This document shows positions 1 to 29,330 of a DNA stretch of 29,821 nt, piece after piece; position 1 is the first letter of the stretch; each line of letters begins with the position of its first letter. Where the stretch lies: the IMG/VR virus record IMGVR_UViG_3300042914_000986, positions 1 through 29,821 of that record; one strand, written 5' to 3'. Under the pieces are notes generated by a model. The model did no database searches. It was not told where the DNA came from and saw only the letters and a program-made list of their open reading frames with translations. Position numbers and translations under genes: made by a program. This DNA comes from a virus.

Positions 1-127
1 AAGATTGCAGTGGCCAATGCATACTTCGACAAGGGGCTCACAACGGCACGATCTATGGCGCAATATTTCAAAATCCCAAACACCTCAGCACACTACCTAA
101 TCGCTGACATAAAAAACACGCTTAAAT
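1..127. repeat. Left copy of 127-bp terminal overlap
   Basis: These bases are identical to 29695-29821. The reading frame of the sigma-like gene runs unbroken through the overlap, so this is the same genomic locus seen twice. An overlap of exactly 127 bases equals a commonly used largest assembly k-mer, so it most likely marks a circular (or circularly permuted) molecule and not a biological direct terminal repeat. Confidence 0.95.
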
Positions 128-153
128 CCATACACTATGAAAATAAAAGATGA
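1..153 (+). CDS. Sigma-70/ECF-like factor, 3' part (continues from window end)
   Basis: Base 1 is the first base of codon 128 of the gene starting at 29314 (29695 is in the same phase). This part encodes the region-4-like helix-turn-helix and a short basic tail (IHYENKR), ending at the TGA at 151-153. The last 17 nt overlap the start of the next gene at 137, so translation is probably coupled. It must be read together with 29314-29694. Annotated alone it would look like a truncated gene. Confidence 0.6.
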   Translation, partial: KIAVANAYFDKGLTTARSMAQYFKIPNTSAHYLIADIKNTLKSIHYENKR

Positions 154-886: not shown

Positions 887-2047
887 ATGGCTGAAATCTC
901 AATCGACAGCACTGTCATCTTCGAAAAGAACTACACTGCATTGGCAGACCCGAGCATCCGCTTCATCATCAATGAGGGTGGAAGCCGCTCGAGCAAGACC
1001 TACTCGCTGTGCCAAATGATCGTGGTGTACTGCCTACAACATCCTGGCAAGGTGGTCAGCATCGTGCGCAAGACATTCCCAGCTTTGAGGGCAACGGTCA
1101 TGCGTGACTTCTTTGAAATCATGAAGGAGATGGGCATCTATGAGGTGATGAGCCACAACAAGTCAGAGCACATCTACACCTTCGACAATGGCTCCATCGT
1201 GGAGTTCTTTTCAGTCGATAATGAGCAAAAAATCAGGGGTCGCAAGAGGGACCTGGGGTGGTGCAATGAAGCCAATGAGCTATGGTTCGAAGACTTTCAG
1301 CAGCTCAACATGAGGACCGAGCACAAGCTCATCTTCGACTACAACCCGAGTGAGTCATCATCTTGGCTGTACGAGCTGCCGATGGATGAGAGCATCATCA
1401 TCAAGTCAACGTACAAAGACAACCCATTCCTTCCTGACAGCATCAAGCGACAGATTGAGGACCTCAAGCGAACCGATGAAGCCTTGTATCAAATCTATGC
1501 GCTCGGAGAGAAAGCCATCAGCAAGAGCAACATCTACTCCAACTGGACATTCGTCAAGCATCGCCCGGCAAGGTTCGTCAACTTTGTGTATGGGCTCGAC
1601 TTTGGGTACAATCACCCGACAGCCTTGGTGAGGGTCTACTACTGCGACAATGATATTTACATCGAGCCGGTCATATACGAAAGCTACCTGACAACGACCA
1701 ACCTCATCGACAAGATGGGCAACCTCGGCATCGAGAAGCACGTCACCATCGTGGCTGACTACGCTCGCCCTGAAATCATTGCCGAGATGAACAACGCTGG
1801 GTACGATGTGCAGAACGCCAACAAGGTGGTCAAGAAGGGCATCGACAACATCAAGACCTTCGGTGTGGTCTGTGAGGATGAGCCACGCATCAAGAAAGAA
1901 TACGAAAACTACAAGTGGAAAAAGGTCGGTGACATCATCACCGATGAGCCCGTGAAGCTGTTCGATGATGCCATGGATGCCGTCCGCTACGCTGCCACGC
2001 ACATCCGCCAGGAGTACTACACCGATGACTCGTATTTCGCCTTCTAA
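887..2047 (+). CDS. terL: Terminase large subunit
   Basis: A 386-aa packaging motor with ATPase and nuclease domains. Walker A is GGSRSSKT (residues 31-38). The Walker B region is LGWCNEANE (123-131), where E128 would be the catalytic glutamate and the first acidic position is asparagine. A NP-containing coupling motif (FDYNPSES) lies near 150-157. The RNase-H-like nuclease domain follows, with GLDFGY (D238), VADYAR (D291) and FDDAMDAVRYA (D360, D361 and D364). Length and motif order fit the PBSX/Terminase_3 type. It follows the small subunit after a 77-nt gap that holds a hairpin and a host-like -7 box. The antisense frame of 225 codons opposite it is a shadow of its codon bias. Confidence 0.95.
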   Translation: MAEISIDSTVIFEKNYTALADPSIRFIINEGGSRSSKTYSLCQMIVVYCLQHPGKVVSIVRKTFPALRATVMRDFFEIMKEMGIYEVMSHNKSEHIYTFDNGSIVEFFSVDNEQKIRGRKRDLGWCNEANELWFEDFQQLNMRTEHKLIFDYNPSESSSWLYELPMDESIIIKSTYKDNPFLPDSIKRQIEDLKRTDEALYQIYALGEKAISKSNIYSNWTFVKHRPARFVNFVYGLDFGYNHPTALVRVYYCDNDIYIEPVIYESYLTTTNLIDKMGNLGIEKHVTIVADYARPEIIAEMNNAGYDVQNANKVVKKGIDNIKTFGVVCEDEPRIKKEYENYKWKKVGDIITDEPVKLFDDAMDAVRYAATHIRQEYYTDDSYFAF

Positions 2048-2076
2048 ACATTTGGTTGCCTTTCTGCAATATAAGC
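2046..2076 (+). promoter_or_regulatory. Bipartite late motif, copy A (tail fibre)
   Basis: AAACA starts at 2046 and GCAATATAAG at 2066 (start-to-start 20 nt). It is followed by one base and the ATG at 2077. Its 10-base box is identical in the other three copies at 10942, 12648 and 15243. It may be a phage-specific promoter giving a leaderless or nearly leaderless message, or a translation signal. Confidence 0.6.
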
Positions 2077-3537
2077 ATGGCATTTAGAACACAGAAGATA
2101 TCCCAGATGACTCCCAAGGGAGCCGACTTGGAAGCAACCGACCTCATCGAAGTATCCACCATTGAGAGTGGAAGCTACGTCACACGATCTATAACTGGTC
2201 AAGAACTCATTGATGCGATACCGCTACCGCCGTCAGGCTTAACAGTCGGCACTACACCGATATCTTCGGGTACAAACGGAAGAGTATTGTTTCAAGGTAC
2301 GGGGAATGTGTTGCAGCAGTCAATTGATTTCGCTTTTAATACTGCAAATTCCAATTTATTATTAGGTAGAAACGCATCAAATACATCTGCTTTACTTTTT
2401 CAATATCCTAGAATGGCAGGTATTAATGGAGTAATTTGGGCAGAAACATCTGCATCATCTCCTTATGGTTATATTGCATTAGATAGAGGGACGGGCGAAA
2501 TGAGAATGTTTACTAACACTTCATACTTCCCAACATTCTACTCAAGCAATGCTGAACGTATGCGTATTGCCACAACAGGCAACGTCCTAATAAACACAAC
2601 AACCGATGCAGGCTTCCGTTTAGACGTCAATGGTACTGCGAGAATCAACACACTTACGGTTGGTTTAGGTGGTGGGCAACAATCAACAAACACCGCTGTT
2701 GGAGTTACTGCATTAAACGCAAATACAACGGGAGTATCAAACACCGCAATTGGATTTGAAGCATTGCTTTTAAATTCTACGGCGTCGGGAAATACTGCAC
2801 TTGGACGAAGGGCATTAAGAGCAACAACGGGAGCTTCAAACATTGCTATTGGCAATGGCGCAATGGAAAATAATACTTCGGGTGTAGCAAACATAGGAAT
2901 TGGTGAGGGTGCAGGAAACGTAAATACAACGGGTGGCAGCAATATTTTCATTGGCAATTGGAGTTCGGGAGTAGTTAACAACGGCGTGAACAGAACTTGG
3001 ATAGGTAACTCCTCAACAACCTCAACATATTTAGCAGGCAACGTACTCATCAACACCACCACAGACGCTGGCTTTAGACTTGACGTTAACGGGACTGCGA
3101 GGTTTGCAACATCAATGGATTGTCCAGCTTGGAATTGGTCAGGCACTAACATTTCTCAAAGAATAAGAGTTACACAAGTCGGAAGCGTTAATAGAGCGTT
3201 AGTCAATATTGAAAATGGGCAAGGTGGTTTAAATTATTCAACAGATGGGTTTGTTAATTCAATACTTGCTATAAATAATTCATTGGTTCTTCAAAATCAG
3301 GGAATGGCTTCTTGCTTTACAATCAATCCAACATACAACTTTAATGGTAACGTAACAAGTGGAGCAATAATGCGTGGTATTTATTACAACCCTACGTTAA
3401 CAAATATAGGAACTGCTACACACTATGCTTTCCACTCAACAAGCGGAAGAGTTAGATTTGAAAACCTACCAACATCCGCAACGGGACTTTCAGCAGGCGA
3501 CATATGGAATGACGGAGGAACATTAAAAATAGTTTAA
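2077..3537 (+). CDS. Tail fibre / adhesin-like protein
   Basis: A 486-aa protein, probably a receptor-binding fibre. The ATG at 2077 is preferred to a TTG 21 nt earlier because it directly follows the conserved bipartite motif. The N-terminus (RTQKISQMTPKGADL and on to SITGQELIDAI) reads like the tail-attachment segment common in Bacteroidota phage fibres. The middle has about six 16-17-residue repeats of NTAIG/NIAIG type, like YadA/Hep_Hag head repeats (about 2683-2985). They are flanked by two copies of a NVLINTTTDAGFRLDVNG segment. The C-terminus, AGDIWNDGGTLKIV, is also typical of these fibres. The first ~70 codons share the composition of the neighbours. From about 2300 the gene is clearly AT-richer, so it looks chimeric. 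Adsorption as its role is inferred from domain type. Confidence 0.8.
   Translation: MAFRTQKISQMTPKGADLEATDLIEVSTIESGSYVTRSITGQELIDAIPLPPSGLTVGTTPISSGTNGRVLFQGTGNVLQQSIDFAFNTANSNLLLGRNASNTSALLFQYPRMAGINGVIWAETSASSPYGYIALDRGTGEMRMFTNTSYFPTFYSSNAERMRIATTGNVLINTTTDAGFRLDVNGTARINTLTVGLGGGQQSTNTAVGVTALNANTTGVSNTAIGFEALLLNSTASGNTALGRRALRATTGASNIAIGNGAMENNTSGVANIGIGEGAGNVNTTGGSNIFIGNWSSGVVNNGVNRTWIGNSSTTSTYLAGNVLINTTTDAGFRLDVNGTARFATSMDCPAWNWSGTNISQRIRVTQVGSVNRALVNIENGQGGLNYSTDGFVNSILAINNSLVLQNQGMASCFTINPTYNFNGNVTSGAIMRGIYYNPTLTNIGTATHYAFHSTSGRVRFENLPTSATGLSAGDIWNDGGTLKIV
2578..2643 (+). repeat. Fibre 22-codon repeat, copy 1
   Basis: Encodes a 22-residue segment starting GNVLINTTTDAG and ending DVNGTAR, identical in protein to 3037-3102. 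Fifteen of the 22 codons differ, all synonymously. It lies just before the NTAIG-type repeat block. Confidence 0.9.
2683..2985 (+). repeat. YadA-head-like NTAIG repeats in tail fibre
   Basis: About six consecutive units of 16-17 residues, each with a (S/T)N(T/I)A(I/V)G core: NTAVG, NTAIG, NTALG, NIAIG, NIGIG and NIFIG. Such repeats form left-handed beta-roll trimers in bacterial adhesins. The units are diverged at DNA level, so this is not a tandem DNA repeat. Confidence 0.8.
3037..3102 (+). repeat. Fibre 22-codon repeat, copy 2
   Basis: The second copy of the GNVLINTTTDAG...DVNGTAR segment, after the beta-roll repeats. The protein is identical to copy 1 while 15 codons are recoded synonymously. 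The pair brackets the repeat block. Confidence 0.9.
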
Positions 3538-3547
3538 TAATAAAAAT

Positions 3548-3817
3548 ATGAAAACACAACCAACACAAGGAGTAGCAATTGAACCAATTGTATACCCACT
3601 AAACGCAGGAACGGCTACGCAAATGTCCGTTTTAGTTCTTAACTTTACAACCGAGGCAACGACTTGCACAACGTACTGGCAATTGCTAACTGAGGACGGA
3701 CTACAACTTTCGCAAGGTAACTACACTTTGACTGAGGAAGAGTTCGCAGCTTGGGGTACTGACAACAACTACGTTAACCAAGTCGTTGCTGCCGCTATTG
3801 GCGTAACTTTAATTTAA
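3548..3817 (+). CDS. Small hypothetical fibre-associated protein
   Basis: An 89-aa protein, not recognised by family name. It is Thr-rich and predicted mostly beta (MSVLVLNFTTEATTCTTYWQLL), with an acidic TEEEFAAWG stretch and a hydrophobic end. It follows the tail fibre after 10 nt and shares that gene's AT-rich composition and codon choice, unlike the next gene. It was probably exchanged together with the fibre body and may be a fibre chaperone or a fibre-tip partner. That role is inference from position and composition only. Confidence 0.65.
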   Translation: MKTQPTQGVAIEPIVYPLNAGTATQMSVLVLNFTTEATTCTTYWQLLTEDGLQLSQGNYTLTEEEFAAWGTDNNYVNQVVAAAIGVTLI

Positions 3818-3821
3818 GATT

Positions 3822-3968
3822 ATGATTCAGCTCACTGAAGAGAATGTAAAGGCATTGGTAGAATTCGCCAATGAATTGCCAACCAAGTATGGTCTGCCGT
3901 TATTGCAGTTCATAGAGAAACTCAAAGAGAATGGCGCAGACAACCATAGCGAGTCCGCAGACGTTTAG
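3822..3968 (+). CDS. Small hypothetical protein (48 aa)
   Basis: ATG at 3822 to TAG at 3966-3968. The predicted helical protein starts MIQLTEENVKALVEFANELP and ends in a polar tail. It overlaps the next gene (ATG 3931) by 38 nt in another frame. Base composition returns here to that of the main late genes, so the AT-rich fibre cassette ends just before it. The helical sequence with regular hydrophobic spacing and the tight placement support a real gene, but no function can be assigned. Confidence 0.55.
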   Translation: MIQLTEENVKALVEFANELPTKYGLPLLQFIEKLKENGADNHSESADV

Positions 3969-5415
3969 TCCGGCATACAACCCACTGAAGTTCATCATCG
4001 ATTCCACCAATAAATCATTGGCTGGCTTTCGATACATCTTTGATGTCTACGCTGCTGGCACTGCAACCAAGATAGCGGAGTACAAGGTGCTTCCAACCTA
4101 TGGCACTGGATATGGCGAGGAGGACCTATCCAAGTTGCTCCAGAATCAAGTGAGCTGGGATTTGAACACAGAGCTCACATCCAACTATGGCGCACCGAAT
4201 TCATTCTACGCATACGATGTCAAGGTCGGTGAGGAGTATGTCTACGAGGTAGCCTATACGAGTAGCTTAACAAATGCGAGTGGCAGCGTGCAGATAAACG
4301 TCGCCAACTCATTCGCTACTGGAGACCAGGTCATCATCACACAAGCTGATGGTGGAGTGGCAAACCCACAGCTCGAAGGACTGCACACTGTGGTCAGTGC
4401 AACTGGCTCGGCATTCGTGGTCAACGTAAACTGGTCCACGATCACGAGCGCAACAATCGATGGCTCGGTGAGCTATGCTGACAAGCGCAAGACCATCACC
4501 AGGGACATCACTCTCTTCGAAGATTATGGCGTATTCAATGGAGCGTTCAGATGGTTGGACTGGACAACGTATGACAAGCTCGACTACAAACTCAACACAC
4601 CCACTGCATTGTGGCTGACCAACCAACCAACGGCAGACTTCTACTGCACATTGGGTCAAGACTTATATCTCAACCTCCAAAATCCGAAAGGTACTGACCG
4701 CATCTACTTCGAGAACTCGAATGGTGCTGTGTTCTACAAGGCAGTTATCTCGAGTACTGACATCCTTCAGGTGCCAGTGGGTCCGAACAACTATGGAATC
4801 TTGGTGGGCACAGGAGACCTCATCGACAACACTGTTGAGTGGTATGATGTGTGGTTCAACAACGGCACCACATTGCAAATCCAAGACTCTGTGAAGTACC
4901 GCATCTATATCGACCGCCGAGTGCTCATCTCCGAGTATCATGTGTTGTTCCTGGACCGACTCGGCTCATGGTCATCATTCGCCTTTCAGCTCAAATCATA
5001 TGAGCGTGGTGAGGTGAGTCGTGAGATGTACAACCAAGATGTCGCTGGCTACGTCAACGCCTTGGATGAGTGGACCTACAAAACAGAGGAGTTCGGATTC
5101 AGAACATTCAACACCAACGTCACCAAGCGCATCGACCTCAACACGAACTGGATGACGCAGAACATGGCGACCTACTTCGAGGAGCTGGTAACATCACCGC
5201 AGACCTTCCTCAAGATTGTCACATACGTCACCACAGAGGATGGCATCCCACTCATTGATGAGGATGGTTGCCCGATTCACATCCCCGAGTCAACGGCATA
5301 TCAGCCATGCATCGTGGACAACAACGCATACGAGATGCTCAATCAACGCAATAAGAATCTGATGCGCCACTCAATCACCGTGCGCCTCGCAAACCAGGAC
5401 AACGTAAATGGTTAG
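3931..5415 (+). CDS. Tail protein (tail-tip region), hypothetical
   Basis: A 494-aa protein, mainly beta in prediction. The N-terminus (MAQTTIASPQTFSPAYNPLK) and overall character match a large unnamed tail protein usually found beside the hub protein in Bacteroidota siphophages. Residues about 110-185 form a compact beta segment (VQINVANSFATGDQVIIT) that looks like an inserted binding domain. The rest resembles distal-tail proteins in size and position. It overlaps the following 896-aa gene by 8 nt (ATG inside its stop region), so the two are translationally coupled. A distal-tail/baseplate role is inferred from gene order. I recognise no catalytic motif. Confidence 0.65.
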   Translation: MAQTTIASPQTFSPAYNPLKFIIDSTNKSLAGFRYIFDVYAAGTATKIAEYKVLPTYGTGYGEEDLSKLLQNQVSWDLNTELTSNYGAPNSFYAYDVKVGEEYVYEVAYTSSLTNASGSVQINVANSFATGDQVIITQADGGVANPQLEGLHTVVSATGSAFVVNVNWSTITSATIDGSVSYADKRKTITRDITLFEDYGVFNGAFRWLDWTTYDKLDYKLNTPTALWLTNQPTADFYCTLGQDLYLNLQNPKGTDRIYFENSNGAVFYKAVISSTDILQVPVGPNNYGILVGTGDLIDNTVEWYDVWFNNGTTLQIQDSVKYRIYIDRRVLISEYHVLFLDRLGSWSSFAFQLKSYERGEVSREMYNQDVAGYVNALDEWTYKTEEFGFRTFNTNVTKRIDLNTNWMTQNMATYFEELVTSPQTFLKIVTYVTTEDGIPLIDEDGCPIHIPESTAYQPCIVDNNAYEMLNQRNKNLMRHSITVRLANQDNVNG

Positions 5416-8098
5416 AATACAACTTGAGAATGGATATCTCGATGTGAAGGAGGGGACAGTCTTTCCTTTGAACTTTGCTGTCGGAGATATCCGTGACCTC
5501 ACCAAGCGCAGCGGAGCATTCTCCAAGACCATCACCTTGGTGGGTAGCAAGAACAACCACGAGCTGCTCAACCACTACTATGATGTCAACATCTCCGCTG
5601 GAACATTCGATATCAATGCACTCACAAAGTGCAGCGTGATTCAGAACAACGTGCCCATCATGGAGGATGCGCTGCTTCAGTTGCTATCGGTCAACAAGAA
5701 TCAGCAGACAGATGCCTATGAGCAAGCTGTCGAGTATGAGGTCCTCATCAAGGATACGAGAGTCGAATTCTTTACAGCCATCGCCAACAAGGACCTGACT
5801 GACCTGGACTTCACTGACCTCAACCATACATTCTCGGCTGCTGACATCGTGGCAACATTTGACAACACGATCACTGACGGCTTCAAGTATGTGTTGCCAT
5901 ACGACACTGACAACATCTACAACGTGCGCCAGATGAAGCCAGCCATCTATGCCAAGACATACCTTGACCGCATCTTCGCCACTGCTGGCTTCCAATACGA
6001 GTGGAGTGACCTGGCATCTGCTCGCTTCGACAAGCTGCTGATTCCTTACAATGGTGACAGCAACACATTTGATTCAGCTGATTATTTGGTTGAAGAGGAG
6101 AAGAATACTCCATTCACTGCATCAGTTGCTTCGACATCAGCTAACAACTACCGAGAAGATGCAACTGGATGGACTGAAATCACTGACGTGCAAGGCTCAT
6201 TCAACCCAACAACTGGTGAGTTCACCGTTCCATTCTCAACCAACGCAGCGGCTGGTGAGGCATACATCATGGAGTATCAGATTGACTATGAATTCCAAAT
6301 CGACAACACGAATCCATCATCAACTTTAGTATTCAATAACCTATCACCATTCAAGGCGACTCCAGTCATTGGCTTCAGCATTCTTGGATACAATGGTCAG
6401 TACTCTAACCTATCGGCAGAGCAAGTCATCAATCAAATGAGTCTTATTCCAAGCGGAGTCACGCTATTAACTGGAGGGATTGTCACAGGTAGCGTTGCTC
6501 TCATGAGCGATGGAACTGTCCCAGCGACGTTGACCGCTGCTCAAGTAGCAAATGTTGTGGTTGGATGGCAGAACGGATACTGCCAGTTCACTGGTGCGTT
6601 GCCAGTCAACGTGGAGCTGATAGTCAACTCGGTTCGTATCAAGATTACTCCAACTGCCAACATCCAAGTGATTGGTGGCATCCTGGACATCAACCAATAT
6701 GTGCCGCTCAAAATCAAGCAGAGCGACTATGTGAAGTCCATCTTCCAGATGTACAACCTCTATGCTGACACCGATGTGGACCAACCCAACAAGCTCATCC
6801 TTCGCCATCGTGACGAATACTATGATAGCGGAGCAGAGAAGGATTGGTCGCAGAAACTAATGAAGGACAGAGAGCAGAATCTCATCTTCCTCCCTGACCT
6901 CACTGCCAAGAAACTCAAGCTCACATACAAGGCAGACAATGACTCTCCGAATGTGGTCTACACCCAGATGACTGACGAGATTTATGGTCAGCTCGAGTAC
7001 ACCTTTGAGAATGAGTACGTCAGAGACACCGACACCAAGGAACTCATCTTCTCACCGACTCCAGTGGTTGCCACGACATTCGATGCCTATGTGCCAGCCT
7101 TGAATGGTGAAGCACCAAAGACCAACATCCGCATCCTGTATGATGGTGGCGAGCAGACGTGCGGCTCATGGGACCTCATTGAGTACGGCACAACGGGTGA
7201 GCTCGGCATCACTACCTATCCGATGCTCGGTCACTTCGATGATGCGCTCACACCGACATTCGACATCAACTTCGCAACGTGCGACTACTACTACTACTCA
7301 CCGAGCACACTGACTGCGAATAACCTCTACAATCTGTACTGGCGCAGAACAGTCAACCAAATAAATGTCGGGAAGATGTTGGTGGCTTACTTCCATTTGA
7401 CCGAGGCTGACATCCAAACACTCAAGCTCAATGACAAGATTCGCATCGACAACTCATGGTGGAACATCAACAAGGTCATCGACTATGATGCCAATGCAGA
7501 GGTGCCGACAAAGGTGGAACTCATCAGCATCGACACTGAAATTGACCTCGCTCCATTCGTAACGAATCCAGGCACACCCGTCTCACCACCAATCACTGCC
7601 TCATCCCATGACACAAATCTTGCCACACGATCAGTGGAAGCAAATGTCAACCTCTCAGGAATGGATGTCATCGTGCGTGGTGAGGGCAACAACATCGGTG
7701 ATGGTCTGCGTGGCTTGGTCATCGGTGACAATAAGACACTCCAGGAGGATGGCATCATCACACCTCGCATCAACGGAGCAGCTGCTGTGGCGCAGACTTA
7801 TGTGGCGTTACTAACGCAGAGCGGTACTGCTGCACCCACTGCTTCTGTATTGGCTGAGAACATCGGAATAATCACCTGGACTCGCACAGCTGTTGGTCAA
7901 TATCTCGGCACTCCTATCAGCCCATTCGATGCTCTAAACACTTTCGTCATAATCGGCAATGTAGAACATGACTACATTGCTACTGCCTACGTCAACAGCG
8001 ATGGCAACATTGTGGTGCACACAACCAAAACACAGAATCATGCACACACTGATTCAAAATTATTAAACTCACCAATCGAAGTCAGAATATATGGCTAA
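5408..8098 (+). CDS. Large tail-tip / baseplate hub-type protein
   Basis: An 896-aa protein, the largest in the genome. The N-terminal ~200 residues (RIQLENGYLDVKEGTVFPLN) resemble the start of tail-tip proteins in Bacteroidota phages. The central part is beta-rich. Near 740-800 there is a Gly/Asn-rich stretch (VRGEGNNIGDGLRGLVIGDN) of the kind that forms beta-helical fibre shafts. The last ~90 residues form a separate C-terminal domain with a His-rich segment (HTTKTQNHAHTD). The order before the tape measure and 8-nt overlaps on both sides suggest the hub that carries fibres and contacts the cell surface. Hub versus long side fibre cannot be decided from sequence. Confidence 0.65.
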   Translation: MVRIQLENGYLDVKEGTVFPLNFAVGDIRDLTKRSGAFSKTITLVGSKNNHELLNHYYDVNISAGTFDINALTKCSVIQNNVPIMEDALLQLLSVNKNQQTDAYEQAVEYEVLIKDTRVEFFTAIANKDLTDLDFTDLNHTFSAADIVATFDNTITDGFKYVLPYDTDNIYNVRQMKPAIYAKTYLDRIFATAGFQYEWSDLASARFDKLLIPYNGDSNTFDSADYLVEEEKNTPFTASVASTSANNYREDATGWTEITDVQGSFNPTTGEFTVPFSTNAAAGEAYIMEYQIDYEFQIDNTNPSSTLVFNNLSPFKATPVIGFSILGYNGQYSNLSAEQVINQMSLIPSGVTLLTGGIVTGSVALMSDGTVPATLTAAQVANVVVGWQNGYCQFTGALPVNVELIVNSVRIKITPTANIQVIGGILDINQYVPLKIKQSDYVKSIFQMYNLYADTDVDQPNKLILRHRDEYYDSGAEKDWSQKLMKDREQNLIFLPDLTAKKLKLTYKADNDSPNVVYTQMTDEIYGQLEYTFENEYVRDTDTKELIFSPTPVVATTFDAYVPALNGEAPKTNIRILYDGGEQTCGSWDLIEYGTTGELGITTYPMLGHFDDALTPTFDINFATCDYYYYSPSTLTANNLYNLYWRRTVNQINVGKMLVAYFHLTEADIQTLKLNDKIRIDNSWWNINKVIDYDANAEVPTKVELISIDTEIDLAPFVTNPGTPVSPPITASSHDTNLATRSVEANVNLSGMDVIVRGEGNNIGDGLRGLVIGDNKTLQEDGIITPRINGAAAVAQTYVALLTQSGTAAPTASVLAENIGIITWTRTAVGQYLGTPISPFDALNTFVIIGNVEHDYIATAYVNSDGNIVVHTTKTQNHAHTDSKLLNSPIEVRIYG

Positions 8099-10493
8099 TG
8101 AAATAGAAATACCTCTCAAGCTATCAGGTGTTCAGTCACTCAAGGCAGAGCTTGTATCACTCAAGGCTGGCATTGCTGACGCATCTGACCCAGAACAAAT
8201 GGCTGCACTGGCTGCAAAGGCTGGTGAAGTGTCTGAAAAGATAAAGGATGCAAATGAGCAGTTGGCTGAAATGTCAAAGGGCTCAAGTTTAGGCAAGGTC
8301 AGTGAGGCATTCCACGACATCAAAGAAGATATCAACTCAATTGACTTTGCTGGAGCTACCAAGCAAATGGATAAATTTTCAGAGGCTTCAGCTGAATCAG
8401 CAAAAAGCCTTGATAAAGGAGCTACATTTGCGCAGAGGTATGGTGAGGAACTTCAGCCACTCACCACTCGATTGGGTGAGGCAGAGGATAGGCTATATGA
8501 GCTTGCTCTTGCTGGTGAGAAAACGTCACAAGAATATCAAGACTTGCTTGATACAGTATCGAGATACCGAAGAGTTCAGATAGAGACAGACCAGGTGGTT
8601 GATGGTGCGTCGCAAACAATGGCGCAGAAGCTCGGAGGTTCACTTGGTGGAGTGACTTCAGCCTTTGAATTGGCTCAAGGTGCAGCTGGTGCATTTGGTG
8701 CAAGTGGTGAAGCCATTGAGAAATCATTGCTCAAGGTTCAGTCAGCTGCTGCAATCGCTCAAGGATTCCAAGGAATAAAGGAAGCTATTCCTTCAATCAA
8801 AGCATTAGGTGCTTCATTCAAAGGTCTTGGTGTTACCATCATATCAAATCCAATCTTCCTGCTCGCTGCTGTAATTACCGCAATATTGGTTGCAATAGGT
8901 ATTTTCTTGAAAAAAATTGGTGTACTTGATAAGATATTCAATGCCATCAATGCGGCACTGAAGCCATTGATTGATGGATTCAAGCAACTGACTGAATGGT
9001 TGGGATTGAGTACGGCTGCTTCAGATGATGCAGCAGAGAAGGTCAAAGCCAACAATGAGAAGATTGTTGCATCTTCCAAAGAGAGGGCTGAAGCACAAAG
9101 CAAATCAATCGAACAGGAGATTCAACTTGCTCAATCATTAGGCAAAGAAACGACTGACCTTGAAATTGAAAAGACCAAGGTAACGGAAAGAGAGTCCAAA
9201 AAGCGATTGAAGCAAACCGAAAAAGACCTTAAAGAATTAAAAGATAAGCGTGGTACTTTAGCCGAAGAAGAAAGAGCCAGACTCAAGAAACAACTCAAGG
9301 AAGAGAATGCACTCATCCGTCAGGCACAGATTGATCGTAAGGTCATCCTAAACAAAGCCGCCAAAGAGGATGCGGATGAAGCGAAAGAAAAGGCGGCAAA
9401 GGATGCTGAAGATGCAAAGAAAAGAGCTGAAGATGCAGCCAAGGCATACCGAGAAGGAAGAACAGCGATTCAAAAAGAGATTGCCGCAGCCAATAAGTTG
9501 GTTGTCGATTCTGGAAAGACACAACAGCAGAAAGAAATTGATGATGTCAAGGCTAAATATGATGCTCTCATCAAGGAAGCTAAAAAATATAAGCAAGATA
9601 CCACTGCACTTAAAGCAGCAGAAAAGTTGGAGATTGATGCTATCAACAAAGCTGCCGCTGATGCTGAACTTGAAATACAAAAGAATCTCGCAAAGCAATT
9701 AGCTGATTTCAGAAATGAAGAGCTCGACAGAGCAGAAGCAATCCAGGAGCAAGCATATCAATCCGGACTGACTGCTCGACAAAAAGAAATTGAAGAGCGC
9801 ACATACTACTACGATAACCTAATTGCTGAAGCCAACCGATATGGTGTTGACACCAAAGTATTTGAAGAGCAACGCAGAAAGGAACTCGCTGACATCAATA
9901 AGAAATTTGACGACCAAGATAAGCAAGTTGCACTTGAAAAGATAGCTCAAGAACAAGCCATCAGAGATGCCAAGATTGAGATTGCATCTTCAGTTGCTCA
10001 AGGACTTGGTGCTATTGGTGAGGCATTCATCAAGGACCAAGAGAAGCTCGAGAAATTCAACAAGGCGCAAGCACTTATACAGATAGGTATCGACACAGCC
10101 AAAGCAATCAGTTCATTGGTTGCGATGTCTCAAGCCAACCCACTCAACTCGGTAACTGCTGGTGCGGCTGGTCTTGCTCAATACGCTGCTGGTATCGTTC
10201 AGATTGTGACCAACATTGCGAAGGCGAAGTCAATATTGATGAACCCAACCAACACATCTGCGGCATCTGCTGGAGGAGGTGGTGGAACAAGCAGCAGCGC
10301 AAGCGCAAGCTCATCCGTTCCATCATTCGTACCTGGTAACCTATTCGGTCAAGGCAACGCAGCGAACAACGTAACCGCACCAACTGGCATGGAGTCAGGT
10401 CAGAATATCACTGTCACTGCTGTGGTGAGTGAGACAGAAATCACAGCCACGCAGAACAAGGTCAACAAAATCATGAAAAATTCAGTATTATGA
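8091..10493 (+). CDS. Tail tape measure protein
   Basis: An 800-aa protein that should set tail length and line the tail lumen. The N-terminal half is helical and Ala-rich. Residues about 249-277 form a strong hydrophobic segment (NPIFLLAAVITAILVAIGIF), as expected for a membrane-penetrating part. From about 310 to 650 it is a long Lys/Glu/Ala coiled coil (KDLKELKDKRG, KAAKDAEDAKK). A second hydrophobic, Ala-rich stretch precedes a Gly/Ser-rich linker and a conserved-looking C-terminal tail (NITVTAVVSETEITATQNKV). At about 1.5 Angstrom per residue it would give a tail near 120 nm, which points to a siphovirus (rule of thumb). It is tightly coupled to the genes on both sides (8 and 4 nt overlaps). 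Confidence 0.9.
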   Translation: MANEIEIPLKLSGVQSLKAELVSLKAGIADASDPEQMAALAAKAGEVSEKIKDANEQLAEMSKGSSLGKVSEAFHDIKEDINSIDFAGATKQMDKFSEASAESAKSLDKGATFAQRYGEELQPLTTRLGEAEDRLYELALAGEKTSQEYQDLLDTVSRYRRVQIETDQVVDGASQTMAQKLGGSLGGVTSAFELAQGAAGAFGASGEAIEKSLLKVQSAAAIAQGFQGIKEAIPSIKALGASFKGLGVTIISNPIFLLAAVITAILVAIGIFLKKIGVLDKIFNAINAALKPLIDGFKQLTEWLGLSTAASDDAAEKVKANNEKIVASSKERAEAQSKSIEQEIQLAQSLGKETTDLEIEKTKVTERESKKRLKQTEKDLKELKDKRGTLAEEERARLKKQLKEENALIRQAQIDRKVILNKAAKEDADEAKEKAAKDAEDAKKRAEDAAKAYREGRTAIQKEIAAANKLVVDSGKTQQQKEIDDVKAKYDALIKEAKKYKQDTTALKAAEKLEIDAINKAAADAELEIQKNLAKQLADFRNEELDRAEAIQEQAYQSGLTARQKEIEERTYYYDNLIAEANRYGVDTKVFEEQRRKELADINKKFDDQDKQVALEKIAQEQAIRDAKIEIASSVAQGLGAIGEAFIKDQEKLEKFNKAQALIQIGIDTAKAISSLVAMSQANPLNSVTAGAAGLAQYAAGIVQIVTNIAKAKSILMNPTNTSAASAGGGGGTSSSASASSSVPSFVPGNLFGQGNAANNVTAPTGMESGQNITVTAVVSETEITATQNKVNKIMKNSVL

Positions 10494-10939
10494 TAAGCTA
10501 TCAAGCACTCGTCAACGAAATCATTGCATTCTACAACGCCCATCTTCAAGTCAAAAAGGTAGGCTCTGACTTCAAGGAGCAGCTCTTCAACTTCGCCACC
10601 AAGGATGAGAAGTATCCGATTGTGTACATCGTGCCAGTGGATGCGATTCCAACCGAGAACACCAATGACTTCACGCTTGAGATTTACTGCTTCGACATCA
10701 TCCAAAAAGACCGTGCAAACATCAACGTCATCTTGAGTGACTGCCATCAGATTCTCATGGACTTGTATTTGAACTATACTTTCAATCTTGATGATCGTGA
10801 TTTTGATGTGGTCGGCTTCCCAGCTCTCGTGCCGCTCAACAATGACCTCCTCGACTACGCTGCTGGATGGTTGATGACCATCACATTCACCATGGATTCA
10901 TGGACCGACTGCCAGATTCCTAAACAAATCGGTGACTAA
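10490..10939 (+). CDS. Tail completion/terminator-like protein
   Basis: A 149-aa protein. The pattern is an N-terminal helix, then beta strands YPIVYIVPVDAIP and FTLEIYCFDI, a helical middle (NVILSDCHQILMDLYLN), and a late strand WLMTITFTMDSWTDC. This resembles tail-terminator or minor tail proteins annotated in Bacteroidota phages. Its start overlaps the tape-measure stop by 4 nt (ATGA). The next gene begins 14 nt downstream behind the bipartite late motif. The name is based on fold-like pattern and position, so moderate confidence only. A neck or baseplate role remains possible. Confidence 0.55.
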   Translation: MISYQALVNEIIAFYNAHLQVKKVGSDFKEQLFNFATKDEKYPIVYIVPVDAIPTENTNDFTLEIYCFDIIQKDRANINVILSDCHQILMDLYLNYTFNLDDRDFDVVGFPALVPLNNDLLDYAAGWLMTITFTMDSWTDCQIPKQIGD

Positions 10940-10953
10940 ATGCAATATAAGTA
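10922..10953 (+). promoter_or_regulatory. Bipartite late motif, copy B
   Basis: AAACA at 10922 and GCAATATAAG at 10942 (20 nt start-to-start), then two bases and the ATG at 10954. The first box overlaps the end of the preceding gene (stop at 10937-10939). Its placement inside an otherwise tight gene run suggests an internal start of transcription or a translation signal. Confidence 0.55.
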
Positions 10954-11379
10954 ATGGCACGTTACGCAGACACTGGAGAATACAACTTCAAATATCCTTT
11001 GAGAAGGCGAGTCGCCAATACTCTCAAGAAAGTTATCAAGGATGAGGCACTCATCGACACTGGTACGCTTTACGATTCTGTGCGTATTAACGCCAAGGTG
11101 AGCACCGAGGGCAATCTACGCATTCAGATTCTTGCTGCCTACTATTTTGGCTACCTAAACAATGGCACGGCAACCATCGCTCCATTCGATTTGGTGCAGA
11201 AATTCAACAACGCACTTGAGATGAATGGATTGATTGCTGAAATGTACGGAATGTATGTGGCTGACTTGGCGCAGAAGTTCCCAATCCTTGAGCTTGGTAA
11301 TTTGTTACGCAAGAAACCGAAAGTAATCTATGACTTTGAGCCGCTATTCGGTGAATTCAACTACTCACTGGACTACTAA
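10954..11379 (+). CDS. HK97-gp10-like / neck protein, putative
   Basis: A 141-aa protein. The basic N-terminus is followed by DEALIDTGTLYDSVRIN and then a strand and AAYYFGYLNNGTATI. This 'DTGxLxxS ... Y..yln.GT' pattern is typical of HK97-gp10-type head-tail joining proteins. The C-terminal third is helical. The gene starts behind a bipartite late motif. It ends by convergent overlap (4 nt) with the minus-strand gene 11376-12113, the stop codons interlocking as CTAA at 11376-11379. Family membership is a pattern-based judgement. Confidence 0.55.
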   Translation: MARYADTGEYNFKYPLRRRVANTLKKVIKDEALIDTGTLYDSVRINAKVSTEGNLRIQILAAYYFGYLNNGTATIAPFDLVQKFNNALEMNGLIAEMYGMYVADLAQKFPILELGNLLRKKPKVIYDFEPLFGEFNYSLDY

Positions 11380-12113
11380 ATCTCCAGCTCTTTTCTCATC
11401 GCCAAGAAATTAAACACAAGCACGAGCTTCATGTTGATGACTTGGTCGTATTTGGTGAGGTCACCGTTGCACATCGACCAGATAAGCTGCTCCCATCCCC
11501 ATTTCTGCGATGACTTCTCACGCTCTGCTTCTTTCTTTTCTTCAGGGTCAGTGATGTCATCGATGTCATCCACCACTTGCTCGGTCATCAGATTCTTGTG
11601 GCTGGTGATGAAGTTATCTCTGAACTTAATATACTCGGTCAGCACACCATACATCTTGGTGATTGGATGCTCCAGGAAGTAATGCACTCGACTCGATGTC
11701 TTGAAATCAGTTGACTCCCATTTTGCGACAACTCCATCCTCCACGATCTCGGGAATTCGATACAACAGAGCGCAGATGTTTGGAAGATATTTGATGTAGT
11801 CGCTTGTGAAGTAGTGCTCGAGGTCGATGAACTCACCGAGAGTGAGGTCAGTCATTGGCTTGAGATAGAACTTGCCAATCCTATCGGTATACAATTTGCT
11901 CGGCTCGGTGTAGAGCCACTGAAGGTCCTTGAATATCTCGGCTACCTCTGTGATATCGAGGTCATCGAAGTCATCTGGTACGGCATCTGTGAGCGCACAG
12001 AGGATATCGATGTTGTGGTTGAATGTACCATCCTCTGCTTTGAGTTGGCGCAGCTCAATGAACTGCTCAAGACTGACTTCCTTCCACCCCTTGGGCAGTA
12101 TTGGCTTGGGCAT
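11376..12113 (-). CDS. Tail assembly chaperone-like protein, second of pair
   Basis: A 245-aa protein on the minus strand within a plus-strand structural region. The N-terminus MPKPILPKGWKEVSLEQFIE shares the 'W/M-x-E-(V/L)-(S/T)-(L/I)-EQF' start with the gene before it (12067-12615), so the two look like diverged paralogues. An acidic linker (DIDDITDPEEKKEAEREK) precedes a C-terminal WGWEQLIWSMCNGDLTKYDQ segment, a pattern I associate with tape-measure chaperones of Bacteroidota phages. It has its own ATG and overlaps the upstream gene by 47 nt in a +1-shifted frame. A translational frameshift product is possible but no clear slippery site is seen. The function is inferred. Confidence 0.55.
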   Translation of the reverse strand: MPKPILPKGWKEVSLEQFIELRQLKAEDGTFNHNIDILCALTDAVPDDFDDLDITEVAEIFKDLQWLYTEPSKLYTDRIGKFYLKPMTDLTLGEFIDLEHYFTSDYIKYLPNICALLYRIPEIVEDGVVAKWESTDFKTSSRVHYFLEHPITKMYGVLTEYIKFRDNFITSHKNLMTEQVVDDIDDITDPEEKKEAEREKSSQKWGWEQLIWSMCNGDLTKYDQVINMKLVLVFNFLAMRKELEI

Positions 12114-12615
12114 ATTCAGCTATCTTCTCGGTGACAAATACAATGTAAGGAACGCAGAGCTCTGCTTTCTGTGTGCGAAATAGTTTTGCTTTGTGCTTGA
12201 GGTGAGCATCGGTGAAGTGCTCTGTGTTGGATAGGTCAGTTCGTTTGAACATGATTGCCATGATGTCACTGATGTAGTGGTTTGGCTTGGTGTTCACAAT
12301 CTTCTCGATGAGCTTGGTCTCTTTCACTGACAATTTCAACTGCGCCTCATAGGTGTAGCCTTCCAACTCGATTGATGTCTGCGCCTCATTTGGTGTGTAT
12401 GAATCGAGGTTGAATTCTTGCACGAGTTTGATGAACTCGCTGAATGGGTAGTCATCCCACATCTCCTCCTTGATGCCAAGATATTTGAACATCTCCACAT
12501 ACTTTTCGATGTTGTCGAAGTCTTGGTTGTTAAGGATTTGACTGATTTTTTCGAACTGCTCAATGGTCAGCTCGCTCATTTTGTTAGGAATCTCCTGGTC
12601 GAATATCTGTATCAT
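12067..12615 (-). CDS. Tail assembly chaperone-like protein, first of pair
   Basis: A 182-aa protein. The ATG at 12615 is preferred to a TTG at 12666, because the longer form would overlap the divergent start at 12659 and contain the predicted promoter. The sequence starts MIQIFDQEIPNKMSELTIEQ and is helical throughout, with a conserved-looking VSEKTxxxIEK-type segment (LSVKETKLIEKIVNTKPNHY). It is related in its N-terminal motif to the downstream gene 11376-12113 and overlaps it by 47 nt. A TATCTTTG box on the minus strand lies just upstream. The chaperone role is inferred from motif and neighbourhood. The minus orientation is unusual for this class. Confidence 0.55.
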   Translation of the reverse strand: MIQIFDQEIPNKMSELTIEQFEKISQILNNQDFDNIEKYVEMFKYLGIKEEMWDDYPFSEFIKLVQEFNLDSYTPNEAQTSIELEGYTYEAQLKLSVKETKLIEKIVNTKPNHYISDIMAIMFKRTDLSNTEHFTDAHLKHKAKLFRTQKAELCVPYIVFVTEKIAEYAQANTAQGVEGSQS

Positions 12616-12628
12616 AATACTAATTTTT

Positions 12629-12658
12629 GAACAAAGATAAAAAAAAAGCAATATAAGC
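12629..12658 (+). promoter_or_regulatory. Bipartite late motif, copy C (head genes)
   Basis: GAACA at 12629 and GCAATATAAG at 12648 (19 nt start-to-start, an A-tract between), then one base and the ATG at 12659. It lies in the 43-nt gap between divergent genes, so here the plus strand needs its own start of transcription. This favours promoter function for the motif. Confidence 0.6.
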
Positions 12659-12667
12659 ATGACCAAA
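12632..12667 (-). promoter_or_regulatory. Host-type promoter for the minus-strand chaperone pair
   Basis: Read on the minus strand, TTTG (12667-12664) is followed after 24 nt by TATCTTTG (12639-12632), an exact TAnnTTTG -7 box. The spacing is 1 nt longer than the usual 17-23. The expected start of transcription is near 12625, about 10 nt before the ATG at 12615. It overlaps the bipartite late motif for the divergent plus-strand gene. Confidence 0.5.
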
Positions 12668-13633
12668 GACCTTCCAATTTACAAAATCACCATCGAGGAT
12701 GAATATGCCGATGGCGAGAATTTGGGAATCGAAATGATAGCATTCACGAGTTCGCCAGCCATAAAGGTTCGTGGCTTAGCTTTCAGTAGCGAGAAAAAAA
12801 TGCTTTTCGCTGATGATGTGAAATATCGCATCACTGCACCAGCTATGATACCGATGGACATCTATCGCAGAGATTCTGAAGAGGGTGACTATTATGTGCA
12901 GTTCACCGCTGATGTCATTGAGAAGATTCATGCCAAGTTTATGGCTGACCTCCGCAATCGTGACATCTTCAACCTGGAGCATGACACTGATAAGAAGGTA
13001 CCAGCCTACATCCTTGAAACATGGATCGTGGACAACCCAACCAAAGACAAAGCATTCAGCACATTTGGCATCGAGGTACCGGAAGGAACTCTCATGGTGA
13101 CTGCTCAAGTGACTGACCCAGAGTACTACAACAAATTGGTTGAAGAGGGTCAAGTTGGTTTTTCCATCGAAGGCTTCCTTGGTCTGAAACTTTCGGAACA
13201 ATTAAATCTTAATACAATGAAGTTACCTGATGGAGAGCACACCATTGAGGACAAAATCTATGTCGTGAAAGACGGCGAGGTTGTTGAAATCAAAGAGGTG
13301 GAAAAAGAACCAACTGAAGAAGTGGTTGAGGAAGAGATGTCAACTGAAGAGGTTGCAATGGAAGAAACAACAGTTGAAGAGACAACTGAAGAGTCTACCA
13401 CTACCGAAGAGGAGATGGCTATCGACCCAGCAACAGACGCAGAAGCAATTCTTGCAATCGTCTTGCCAGTGATTGAGGAGCGTGAGAAGGCATTGATTGC
13501 CATCATCGCTGACCTCCGCAATCAGATGGAAGAGATGTATGCAGAGAAAGAAGAAGAGAAGGCAGAGGAGCAAATTGCCGAGGCTACAATGAGCCAAAAA
13601 TTTGCCGCATTTAAGCAATTCAGTAATCAATAA
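12659..13633 (+). CDS. Head maturation protease (XkdF-like) fused to scaffold-like domain
   Basis: A 324-aa protein. Residues about 75-180 match the XkdF-type prohead serine protease pattern: FNLEHD (H108), a strand YILETWIVDN, then EEGQVGFSIEGFLG, where S169 is the likely nucleophile. Residues about 205-255 are extremely Glu/Thr-rich (EEVAMEETTVEETTEES). The C-terminal helix (EEREKALIAIIADLRNQMEE) resembles a scaffolding delta domain. The protein would therefore guide capsid assembly and then cleave the scaffold. It directly precedes the major capsid gene (13 nt gap) and starts behind the bipartite late motif. The protease call is by motif. The scaffold part is inferred from composition. Confidence 0.75.
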   Translation: MTKDLPIYKITIEDEYADGENLGIEMIAFTSSPAIKVRGLAFSSEKKMLFADDVKYRITAPAMIPMDIYRRDSEEGDYYVQFTADVIEKIHAKFMADLRNRDIFNLEHDTDKKVPAYILETWIVDNPTKDKAFSTFGIEVPEGTLMVTAQVTDPEYYNKLVEEGQVGFSIEGFLGLKLSEQLNLNTMKLPDGEHTIEDKIYVVKDGEVVEIKEVEKEPTEEVVEEEMSTEEVAMEETTVEETTEESTTTEEEMAIDPATDAEAILAIVLPVIEEREKALIAIIADLRNQMEEMYAEKEEEKAEEQIAEATMSQKFAAFKQFSNQ

Positions 13634-13646
13634 AAAACAAATAAAA

Positions 13647-14579
13647 ATGTCAAGAAAACTCCGTTTCGATTTGGATGTTGACGCATCCGCTCTATTGGCA
13701 GCGAACCCAGAGGCATTCTACTCTAAAGCATATTTGAGTGAAGAGTCTATCGCTGACAACTACCGCCTCCTTCCTGGTGTGAAGGATAAGACTAAACTTG
13801 CAACCGTGTTATTTTCACGACCGTTGCAAGCATCTAACTGCTCATTCTCGGCTCCCGATGATGACTTGAGCGCAGTTGAAATTTCGGTATGTGCGTTATC
13901 CAGCCTTGCGCAAATCTGTCAGTTTGACCTTGAGCAATCATTCCTTGCACTTCAAATGGCTAAAGGTTCAAATGGTGACTTCACTGTTGCATCTTTCATG
14001 GATTTCTACTGGAATGAATTAGCTAAAGCTATCGGTCAAAGCATCGAGCTTATCCGTTGGCAAGGTGACACAGAGAGTGTTGATACTACTTTATCTCTTT
14101 GTGATGGTTACGAAAAAATCCTTTGTGGTAATGAGGCTGTAAATGGTCTTTATGGTGGTGCAATTACATCTTCAAATGTATTGACTCAATTGGCTGCTGT
14201 ATTTGCTGCTGCTCCTGCTGCAATCATCCGCAAGAAAGCTGACCTTCGCTTGTATGTTTCTACCAACGTAGCAAACGCATACGAATTGGCTGCTGCTACT
14301 GGCAACACCATGACATATGTGACTACTCCATTGGCATTGACTTACCTTGGTGTTAAAGTTGTAGCTTGTGAAGGTATGTCTGACAACACAATCGTGTTGA
14401 CTTTGAAAGATAACCTCATCTACGCATTCGACGCAGAGGGTGATTCAAAAGCGTTGAAAGCTGTCAACCTTTCTGACACAGTTGCAGAGCCGTACATCCG
14501 TACTCGTGCAAACATGAAAGTTGGTTTCACTGTTGTGAATCCAAGCGAGGTTGTTATGTACAACGTTTGCTTCGACTAA
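13647..14579 (+). CDS. Major capsid protein
   Basis: A 310-aa protein. The ATG at 13647, with an A-rich leader (AATAAAA), is preferred to an in-frame ATG at 13602 that lies inside the preceding gene. It begins MSRKLRFDLDVDASALLAAN. Further segments fit the HK97-fold coat proteins of Bacteroidota phages: an E-loop-like polar part, a helical spine near FMDFYWNELAKAIGQSIELI, and a C-terminal P-domain strand series ending NPSEVVMYNVCFD. The length, the position after protease-scaffold, and the strong terminator directly after it all fit a highly expressed coat gene. Confidence 0.85.
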   Translation: MSRKLRFDLDVDASALLAANPEAFYSKAYLSEESIADNYRLLPGVKDKTKLATVLFSRPLQASNCSFSAPDDDLSAVEISVCALSSLAQICQFDLEQSFLALQMAKGSNGDFTVASFMDFYWNELAKAIGQSIELIRWQGDTESVDTTLSLCDGYEKILCGNEAVNGLYGGAITSSNVLTQLAAVFAAAPAAIIRKKADLRLYVSTNVANAYELAAATGNTMTYVTTPLALTYLGVKVVACEGMSDNTIVLTLKDNLIYAFDAEGDSKALKAVNLSDTVAEPYIRTRANMKVGFTVVNPSEVVMYNVCFD

Positions 14580-14602
14580 TCGAAAGCAACCCATATATAT
14601 TT

Positions 14603-14628
14603 GGGGGGTGAAATTCCCCCCTATTTTT
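14603..14628 (+). terminator. Rho-independent terminator after capsid gene
   Basis: GGGGGG (14603-14608), 7-nt loop, CCCCCC (14616-14621), then TATTTTT. It lies in the 69-nt gap between capsid and tail tube. A TATATTTG box (14596-14603) runs into its left arm, but with no well-placed TTG it is not called as a promoter. The terminator may be partial, giving more capsid than downstream messages. Confidence 0.8.
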
Positions 14629-14648
14629 AAACTGATAAATCAAAAATT

Positions 14649-15170
14649 ATGGCTTGTGAAGCTTTAGAAACAATTGTAAAATCATGCGACAACAATAGTG
14701 GTGGCATTGAAAAGATTTGGATTAATCAGCAAGACAACATTGCGTCATTCACTTTAGATGCAACCAACACATGGACAATCGATGCTATCACTTTAGCTGG
14801 TGGTGCTCCTGACTATACTCCATTCGAGATACGCAGAAACACTGGAAGCTATGTTGAAGATGCTGCCATCGACCTCGTGAACGGTTCATCTTATGTGACT
14901 GCGACAATCTCTTTGATGTTCCACCGTCGTGACCAAGACAAATCTCAAGCAATCAAAATCTTGGGTGCTGGTCAGCAATACCTTAACGCAATCGTGAAGG
15001 ATATGAATGGCAAGTACTGGTACTTCCCATTCCTTCAGTTGAGTGCTGTTGGTGAAGGTTCAGGTACTACTCGTGCAGATGGTAGCAAGTACTCTGTGAC
15101 ATTGATCGCAGAGAATGACTTCCTCGCATACGAGATTGAAGAGGCTGCTGTGAATGCTGTCATTGCTTAA
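14649..15170 (+). CDS. Major tail tube protein
   Basis: A 173-aa protein. It starts MACEALETIVKSCDNNSGGI and is beta-rich throughout, with a long antiparallel segment (SYVTATISLMFHRRDQDKSQ) and a final SKYSVTLIAENDFLAYEIEE. Size and pattern match the tail tube protein family of Bacteroidota siphophages. The gene stands alone between two strong terminators (14603-14628 and 15194-15220), as expected for an abundant structural protein. Its place on the far side of the capsid gene, away from the tape measure, is unusual. Confidence 0.75.
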   Translation: MACEALETIVKSCDNNSGGIEKIWINQQDNIASFTLDATNTWTIDAITLAGGAPDYTPFEIRRNTGSYVEDAAIDLVNGSSYVTATISLMFHRRDQDKSQAIKILGAGQQYLNAIVKDMNGKYWYFPFLQLSAVGEGSGTTRADGSKYSVTLIAENDFLAYEIEEAAVNAVIA

Positions 15171-15193
15171 TCAAAAATCAACCTACTATAAAG

Positions 15194-15220
15194 AGCCATC
15201 CACACCGGGTGGCTTTTTTT
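15194..15220 (+). terminator. Rho-independent terminator after tail tube gene
   Basis: AGCCATCC (15194-15201), loop ACACC, GGGTGGCT (15207-15214), then six further T. The stem is 8 bp with one G-T pair. It is followed within a few bases by bipartite late motif D, so transcription most likely restarts there. Confidence 0.9.
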
Positions 15221-15222
15221 GT

Positions 15223-15255
15223 GAACAAAATTTGACCTCATTGCAATATAAGTAA
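15223..15255 (+). promoter_or_regulatory. Bipartite late motif, copy D (portal block)
   Basis: GAACA at 15223 and GCAATATAAG at 15243 (20 nt start-to-start), three bases, then the ATG at 15256. It lies immediately after a strong terminator, so a new start of transcription is needed here. This is the best positional evidence that the motif is a promoter. Confidence 0.65.
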
Positions 15256-15597
15256 ATGATTTACATTAACAAGGGAGAGGTGAATTCGATTGTGTTGACT
15301 TTGACAGAGGTCTCAACATTGTCTGCACCTTATTATTTATTCGTTTTCCAAAACGAAATGAACCCAACATCCGACCCAATACTCTTCACAGCACCCGATG
15401 ACTCCGACTATCCAGAGAGATTCAACCTATTCTATTTGGATGAGCCCGTTGATGTCGAGCTAATGAAGGGACAATATACATACTCGGTGTACGAATCCAC
15501 AATTCCACCCACAGAAATCAGCGATACCACTGGTGTTGTCATTGAAGAGGGCAGAATGGTTGTGAGTGGCGCATCGACATCATCAATTTATGACTAA
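15256..15597 (+). CDS. Hypothetical structural protein before portal
   Basis: A 113-aa beta-sandwich-like protein: KGEVNSIVLTLTEVSTLSAP, then YYLFVFQNEMNPT, a Pro/Asp-rich turn region, and a final strand GQYTYSVYES with VIEEGRMVVSG. Similar unnamed proteins occur near structural genes of Bacteroidota phages. A head decoration or neck role is possible but unproven. It is the first gene after the terminator and motif D, and the portal follows after 2 nt. Confidence 0.6.
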   Translation: MIYINKGEVNSIVLTLTEVSTLSAPYYLFVFQNEMNPTSDPILFTAPDDSDYPERFNLFYLDEPVDVELMKGQYTYSVYESTIPPTEISDTTGVVIEEGRMVVSGASTSSIYD

Positions 15598-19959: not shown

Positions 19960-20013
19960 AAACTCACATTATATTGCACCTTTTAGGGTACGTTTTGTAC
20001 CTTTTTGGGTACA

Positions 20014-29148: not shown

Positions 29149-29330
29149 AATATATCAAAGCAGTGCAAGAAATGGATGAGAAAGAACGTCTCACCAAGAA
29201 AGTGCTGAACAGACTCAAGGCTATCAAGGTCAGCGTGACCGGACAGCCAGACAGAGAGTGCTTCTGCTCGCAAATCAGACGCAAAATCTGGTACAAAGAC
29301 TTCACCAACTGGTATGAAAGCAACGCTTGA
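29130..29330 (+). CDS. Small basic hypothetical protein before sigma-like gene
   Basis: A 66-aa protein. The ATG at 29130 is preferred to an upstream in-frame one at 29034 inside the membrane gene. It is a helical N-terminus (MDREQIEYIKAVQEMDEKER), then PDRECFCSQIRRKIWYKDFT and NWYESNA. The CFCS-RRK-WY end resembles short proteins often seen beside the terminase region in Bacteroidota phages, with no known function. It overlaps the sigma-like gene by 17 nt, which suggests coupled expression, perhaps as its partner or regulator. Confidence 0.6.
   Translation: MDREQIEYIKAVQEMDEKERLTKKVLNRLKAIKVSVTGQPDRECFCSQIRRKIWYKDFTNWYESNA

Follow-up and report, generated by a model that had tools for sequence, protein, structure and literature searches.

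Late sigma factors encoded by phages are known as a kind from other phages, and the late and middle sigmas T4 gp55 and SPO1 gp28/gp34 follow the same general strategy as the one considered here. The late promoters of T4 lack a -35 box and require a sliding clamp, and no sequence relation was seen between these sigmas and the sigma-like protein of the present phage. A closer parallel is Salmonella phage 7-11, a phiEco32-like phage in which gp47, a phage protein of the sigma family, acts with the host core polymerase at bipartite late promoters, the early genes being served by the host sigma (PMC8948821). The sigma-dependent late promoter of phage 7-11 is given there as GTAAtg-16-aCTA, with transcription starting 6-9 nt downstream of the second box. 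In phiEco32, gp36 is likewise a sigma-family protein used for middle and late genes, and its single-element promoter, tAATGTAtA, is attributed to a missing region 4 (PMC8948821). The sigma A promoters of Bacteroidota consist of -33 and -7 elements, the latter being TAnnTTTG. Most Bacteroidota host messages have leaders (PMC6847099, PMC9723704), and in Flavobacterium psychrophilum 5.5% of the starts mapped are leaderless (PMC9723704). Descriptions of how Bacteroidota phages programme their transcription are few, and the papers searched contained no account matching the system below.

In this study, a stretch of viral DNA of 29,821 nucleotides (IMGVR_UViG_3300042914_000986; hereafter the window) was compared with about 40 whole relatives and more than 200 further contigs, and the conservation, spacing, placement and concerted change of its promoter-like sites, as well as remote sigma homology, were computed. 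The window, whose 127-bp ends are identical (bases 1-127 repeat 29695-29821), constitutes a complete circular genome of a phage. Its host is apparently a member of the Bacteroidota, as judged from conserved TAnnTTTG boxes and from the terL matches, which include many phages of Bacteroides, Parabacteroides and Flavobacterium. The close relatives are almost entirely uncultured viral contigs. Among named phages, the search found none with a relative of the window's sigma-like protein, and the nearest named-phage capsid, that of the Nonlabens phages P12024S/L, is only 23% identical. The genes that concern the argument are the following:

29314..29821, plus strand: N-terminal part of the sigma-like gene (177 aa in total), continuing across the circular junction
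1..153, plus strand: sigma-like gene, C-terminal part
387: terS
887: terL
2077..3537, plus strand: fibre-like virion protein (phrog_6002, phrog_4636), first gene of candidate promoter P1
8091: tape measure
10954..11379, plus strand: HK97-gp10-like tail gene, a weak assignment (PF04883, E 0.0047, below the PF04883 cut-off), gene of P2
12659..13633, plus strand: head maturation protease homologue (Pfam Peptidase_S78_2), first gene of P3
13647: capsid-type virion protein
15256..15597, plus strand: small gene preceding the portal gene, without a match in family searches, first gene of P4
15600: portal
17916: endolysin-type amidase

A sequence-only reading of the window had proposed that a decamer lying 1-3 nt before the start codons of four structural genes forms, together with an upstream RAACA box, a phage-specific late promoter. 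The decamer, GCAATATAAG, does occur in four copies, all on the plus strand, at 2066, 10942, 12648 and 15243, with gaps of 1, 2, 1 and 3 nt to the ATG codons at 2077, 10954, 12659 and 15256, and RAACA begins 20, 20, 19 and 20 nt ahead of it. The sites and their neighbouring signals are:

2046..2075, plus strand: candidate late promoter P1 (RAACA 2046-2050, decamer 2066-2075), before the first gene behind terL
10922..10951, plus strand: candidate late promoter P2 (RAACA 10922-10926, decamer 10942-10951), before the HK97-gp10-like gene
12629..12657, plus strand: candidate late promoter P3 (RAACA 12629-12633, decamer 12648-12657), before the protease and capsid genes
15223..15252, plus strand: candidate late promoter P4 (RAACA 15223-15227, decamer 15243-15252), before gene 15256, portal and downstream genes
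15190..15220, plus strand: intrinsic terminator at the end of the capsid unit, immediately ahead of P4 (folding, -16.6 kcal/mol, z -4.3)
12632..12639, minus strand: host-type -7 box TATCTTTG, overlapping the RAACA box of P3 and serving the minus-strand gene that starts at 12615

The description of the four genes as structural largely stood: gene 12659 is a protease homologue and gene 2077 is fibre-like, gene 10954 is only weakly HK97-gp10-like, and gene 15256 is without a family match. Recurrence of the decamer was rejected as evidence by itself, as eight different decamers each occur four times in the window; what goes beyond chance is the placement ahead of start codons plus the second box. 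Across the 12 whole genomes that share the dialect, the window among them, 36 copies of the decamer were found 0-5 nt ahead of a start codon and one at another place; permuted decamers averaged 0.14 and 0.81. An Rfam search returned nothing. At 19968-19977 on the minus strand, GCAATATAAT matches the decamer at nine of ten positions; it is intergenic, between the late terminator and the early genes, with no gene behind it.

The two-box sites stand at the starts of transcription units, namely behind a terminator, at a divergent gene pair and before the first gene behind terL, and none was found before the internal late genes. The terminator ahead of gene 15256, which a terminator scan had missed, was confirmed by folding, and gene 12659 indeed diverges from a minus-strand gene. 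Upstream regions of homologous genes in the relatives were gathered through protein homology and not through the motif. Per-position comparison of these regions showed that both boxes are conserved at homologous gene starts and that the spacer between them drifts. Moreover, the exact two-box pattern was searched in the viral collection, and 97 of 112 among the matches listed belonged to this phage group at these positions, the remaining 15 looking like chance in unrelated contigs. The P1 site stays behind terL whichever gene follows, be it the fibre gene (window), a gene for a 123-aa protein (L327, L354) or a homologue of gene 3931 (dialects C and D). The P2 site is absent in dialects C and D, where the HK97-gp10-like gene follows a neighbour without a site.

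At least five lineage-specific dialects of the second box were distinguished: GCAATATAAG, GCAACATAAG, ACAATATAGG, TAATATnGTT and CTATTnT. Identity of the sigma-like protein to that of the window declines with the dialect, from above 85% in the same dialect to about 65% with GCAACATAAG (or GCAATATAAG), about 43% with others and 34% with CTATT. In phages whose sigma-like protein shares at least 85% identity with that of the window, the form is RAACA-N14/15-GCAATATAAG, some having GCAATATAAC at one site, and this form is kept even at 64-65% capsid identity (G021, G023-G027). A lineage with about 64% sigma-like identity has GCAACATA at every site found, and another, at 65%, retains GCAATATA. At about 40-45% identity, TAACA or TAAT-like boxes are combined with ACAATATAGG, or GAACA with TAATATnGTT, and TAACA is paired with CTATTnT in the most distant lineage (34%). 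Whatever the dialect, 0-4 nt separate the second box from the start codon; RAACA begins 30-33 nt ahead of the A of the ATG, and the distance to the ATG is constant across dialects. Dialect matches numbered 158 in about 35 genomes (whole ones and large contigs), and 142 of them lie directly ahead of a gene start. The late genes of these phages share a motif that is distinct from the host promoters.

The strongest evidence for a trans-acting reader is the concerted change of independent sites, although this does not by itself name the reader. The sites before genes 12659 and 15256, which are not homologous DNA, were compared across lineages. Their decamers agreed at 0.85 within lineages and 0.61 between them, as good a result being given by 4 of 720 pairings, whereas the 14-nt spacers in the same comparison agreed at 0.34 within and 0.36 between (556 of 720 pairings). 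The sites of one lineage change together and the spacers do not, which argues for one sequence-specific trans-acting reader per lineage, recognised here indirectly. The cross-site test took the place of a Mantel test of motif distance against sigma and capsid distance, in which the motif followed sigma with capsid fixed (0.68) and the spacer did so too (0.78); because the spacer also correlates with sigma, that result shows only shared descent and not a sigma-motif pairing. Three contigs with doubled late modules, G020 (IMGVR_UViG_3300034111_000131), G004 and G017, were left out of both statistics for that reason. In G020 the sigma-like gene and terL are each present twice, in copies from different lineages; the three contigs may be assembly chimeras or recombinants.

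The strongest candidate for the reader, and a likely one, is the 177-aa protein encoded directly before terS at the end of the early/middle region. The sigma-like gene proposed earlier exists, starting at 29314 and wrapping the circular junction to position 153. It was found in 26 of 26 records long enough to tell, the three records without it being pieces of 17-18 kb. With the NCBIfam sigma70-ECF model TIGR02937, 26 of 37 members matched (best 2.7e-6, full length in the proteins shown), at about 14-26 bits in those proteins against a curated cut-off of 42.9. The window copy or profile gave no sequence match in Pfam, PHROG or PDB, the PDB sequence search with the profile yielding chance hits only, and profile-profile comparison gave a probability of only 5%, with a collinear but weak alignment. 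The predicted structure (pLDDT 73, pTM 0.41) comprises two all-helical domains joined by a low-confidence linker at 73-106, and the first 27 PDB matches by Foldseek were all sigma factors or complexes with them (among them SigL, SigH, sigma E, FliA and sigma 32; best E 7e-3). Taken together, the protein would be a remote relative of sigma factors, and it is called sigma-like and not a proven member. In dialect C (G010, G011, G012, G013, G018 and G043), the late decamer, together with the ATG of a short reading frame that comes next, lies within the final codons of the sigma-like gene (..QYRYE). The protein could thereby activate its own downstream operon, with coding constraint as a confounder.

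Host-type boxes occupy other positions. The claim that TAnnTTTG is absent from the plus strand held at the four late sites, none of which carries it on the coding strand, but failed elsewhere, for example at 819 ahead of terL and at 14596. Such boxes, of the type found in sigma A promoters of Bacteroidota, precede terL and the divergent minus-strand gene of the window phage. At the divergent site, the minus-strand box was kept in 40 of 40 genomes, and in the window two of its bases fall within the RAACA box of P3. Ahead of terL (819-886), the host-type TATCTTTG was kept in 15 of 15 close relatives and is followed by a conserved hairpin in which three of nine pairs have changed on both sides with pairing kept, so that terL may be controlled by a structured leader. 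At 14596-14621, between the capsid gene and 14649, TATATTTG runs directly into a GGGGGG...CCCCCC hairpin and a U-run, possibly a terminator, or else an attenuator, that a host-type box overlaps.

The reading of the two-box signal as a phage-specific late promoter is well supported at the level of sequence by fixed spacing across lineages, joint change of sites, placement at unit starts and absence from internal late genes. Which factor reads it is a separate matter. A host alternative (ECF) sigma, or host sigma A with a phage activator, could do so instead of the phage protein; Flavobacteria have several ECF sigma factors (PMC9723704), the dialects could track host lineages, and the homology of the phage protein is remote. 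This was judged unlikely, since no relative of sufficient length lacks the sigma-like gene, the best structural matches to its product are sigma factors without exception, and the host-type box stays TAnnTTTG in all lineages, indicating a host sigma A code that is constant while the late motif varies.

That the decamer is instead a translation-initiation signal before highly expressed genes is very improbable. It touches the ATG, and Bacteroidota ribosomes respond to bases just upstream, preferring A at -3, -6, -12 and -13 (PMC6847099), but these preferences do not predict a 10-base word, and no ribosomal reader is known for recoding across a lineage. Nor would translation explain a second box 19-21 nt upstream at a kept spacing, or sites confined to unit starts, two of which (15256 directly behind a terminator, 12659 at a divergent pair) need a promoter. 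Sequences spread by exchange as recombination linkers at module boundaries would account for the location of the sites at module borders and for the variable gene content behind terL; the fixed ATG distance, the two boxes, the non-homologous spacers and concerted drift without flanking similarity make this the least credible of the three, with hardly any probability left to it.

It is thus considered quite probable that the late promoters depend on the phage's own sigma-like protein and that their messages start at or within a few nucleotides of the AUG; taken separately, reading by this protein is likely, and so is leaderless or near-leaderless output, which is inferred from geometry. The following scheme is inferred as regards binding by the sigma-like protein, recruitment of the polymerase, the precise 5' ends, the timing and the switch at the divergent pair. 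RAACA would be the -35-like and GCAATATAAG the -10-like element, both recognised by the host RNA polymerase core with the sigma-like protein, and transcription would begin at, or within a few nucleotides of, the start codon, leaving the structural-unit messages with no leader or almost none. Host TAnnTTTG promoters would drive the early genes, terL and the minus-strand gene at 12615. Where the host and phage promoters overlap at the divergent site, host sigma A and the phage reader would compete and so reverse the direction of transcription, the late-sigma polymerase also shutting off the opposing gene.

The closeness to the ATG, regarded as odd at first, proved a consistent property, the start codon occupying the expected start point of transcription in every dialect. 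Because N-termini are conserved from the two-box-adjacent ATG, a start codon further into the gene is improbable. TATAAG was tried as a standard sigma-70 -10 box and rejected: the start would fall inside the gene past the ATG, yet the N-termini are conserved. By analogy with phiEco32 promoters, a distance of 6-8 nt, if counted from the decamer end, would place starts just inside the gene. In phage 7-11, box spacing is similar and the overall distance to the start is equivalent to the 30-33 nt found here (PMC8948821); that phage is, however, unrelated, with a host of another phylum and a different motif, and leaderless starts are not among the features taken from its description. Unlike phiEco32 gp36, the present system has two boxes and a protein with a predicted region-4-like C-terminal helix-turn-helix.

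In conclusion, the literature searched appears to contain no description of this phage family, of its dialects, of the leaderless geometry or of the host promoter that is overlapped at the divergent site. The wider picture, of a Bacteroidota phage family with leaderless late promoters for its structural genes, its own fast-evolving and otherwise unrecognised ECF-like sigma, at least five matched dialects and a direction flip at a conserved divergent site where phage -35 and host -7 boxes overlap, is put forward with only a slight lean in its favour. The system offers a testable sigma-promoter pair and a candidate orthogonal expression signal for Bacteroidota, and with five natural variants a recognition code could be worked out from sequence alone. 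If the reading is true, the viral proteins made in greatest abundance would depend on leaderless translation, though Bacteroidota hosts make few leaderless messages.
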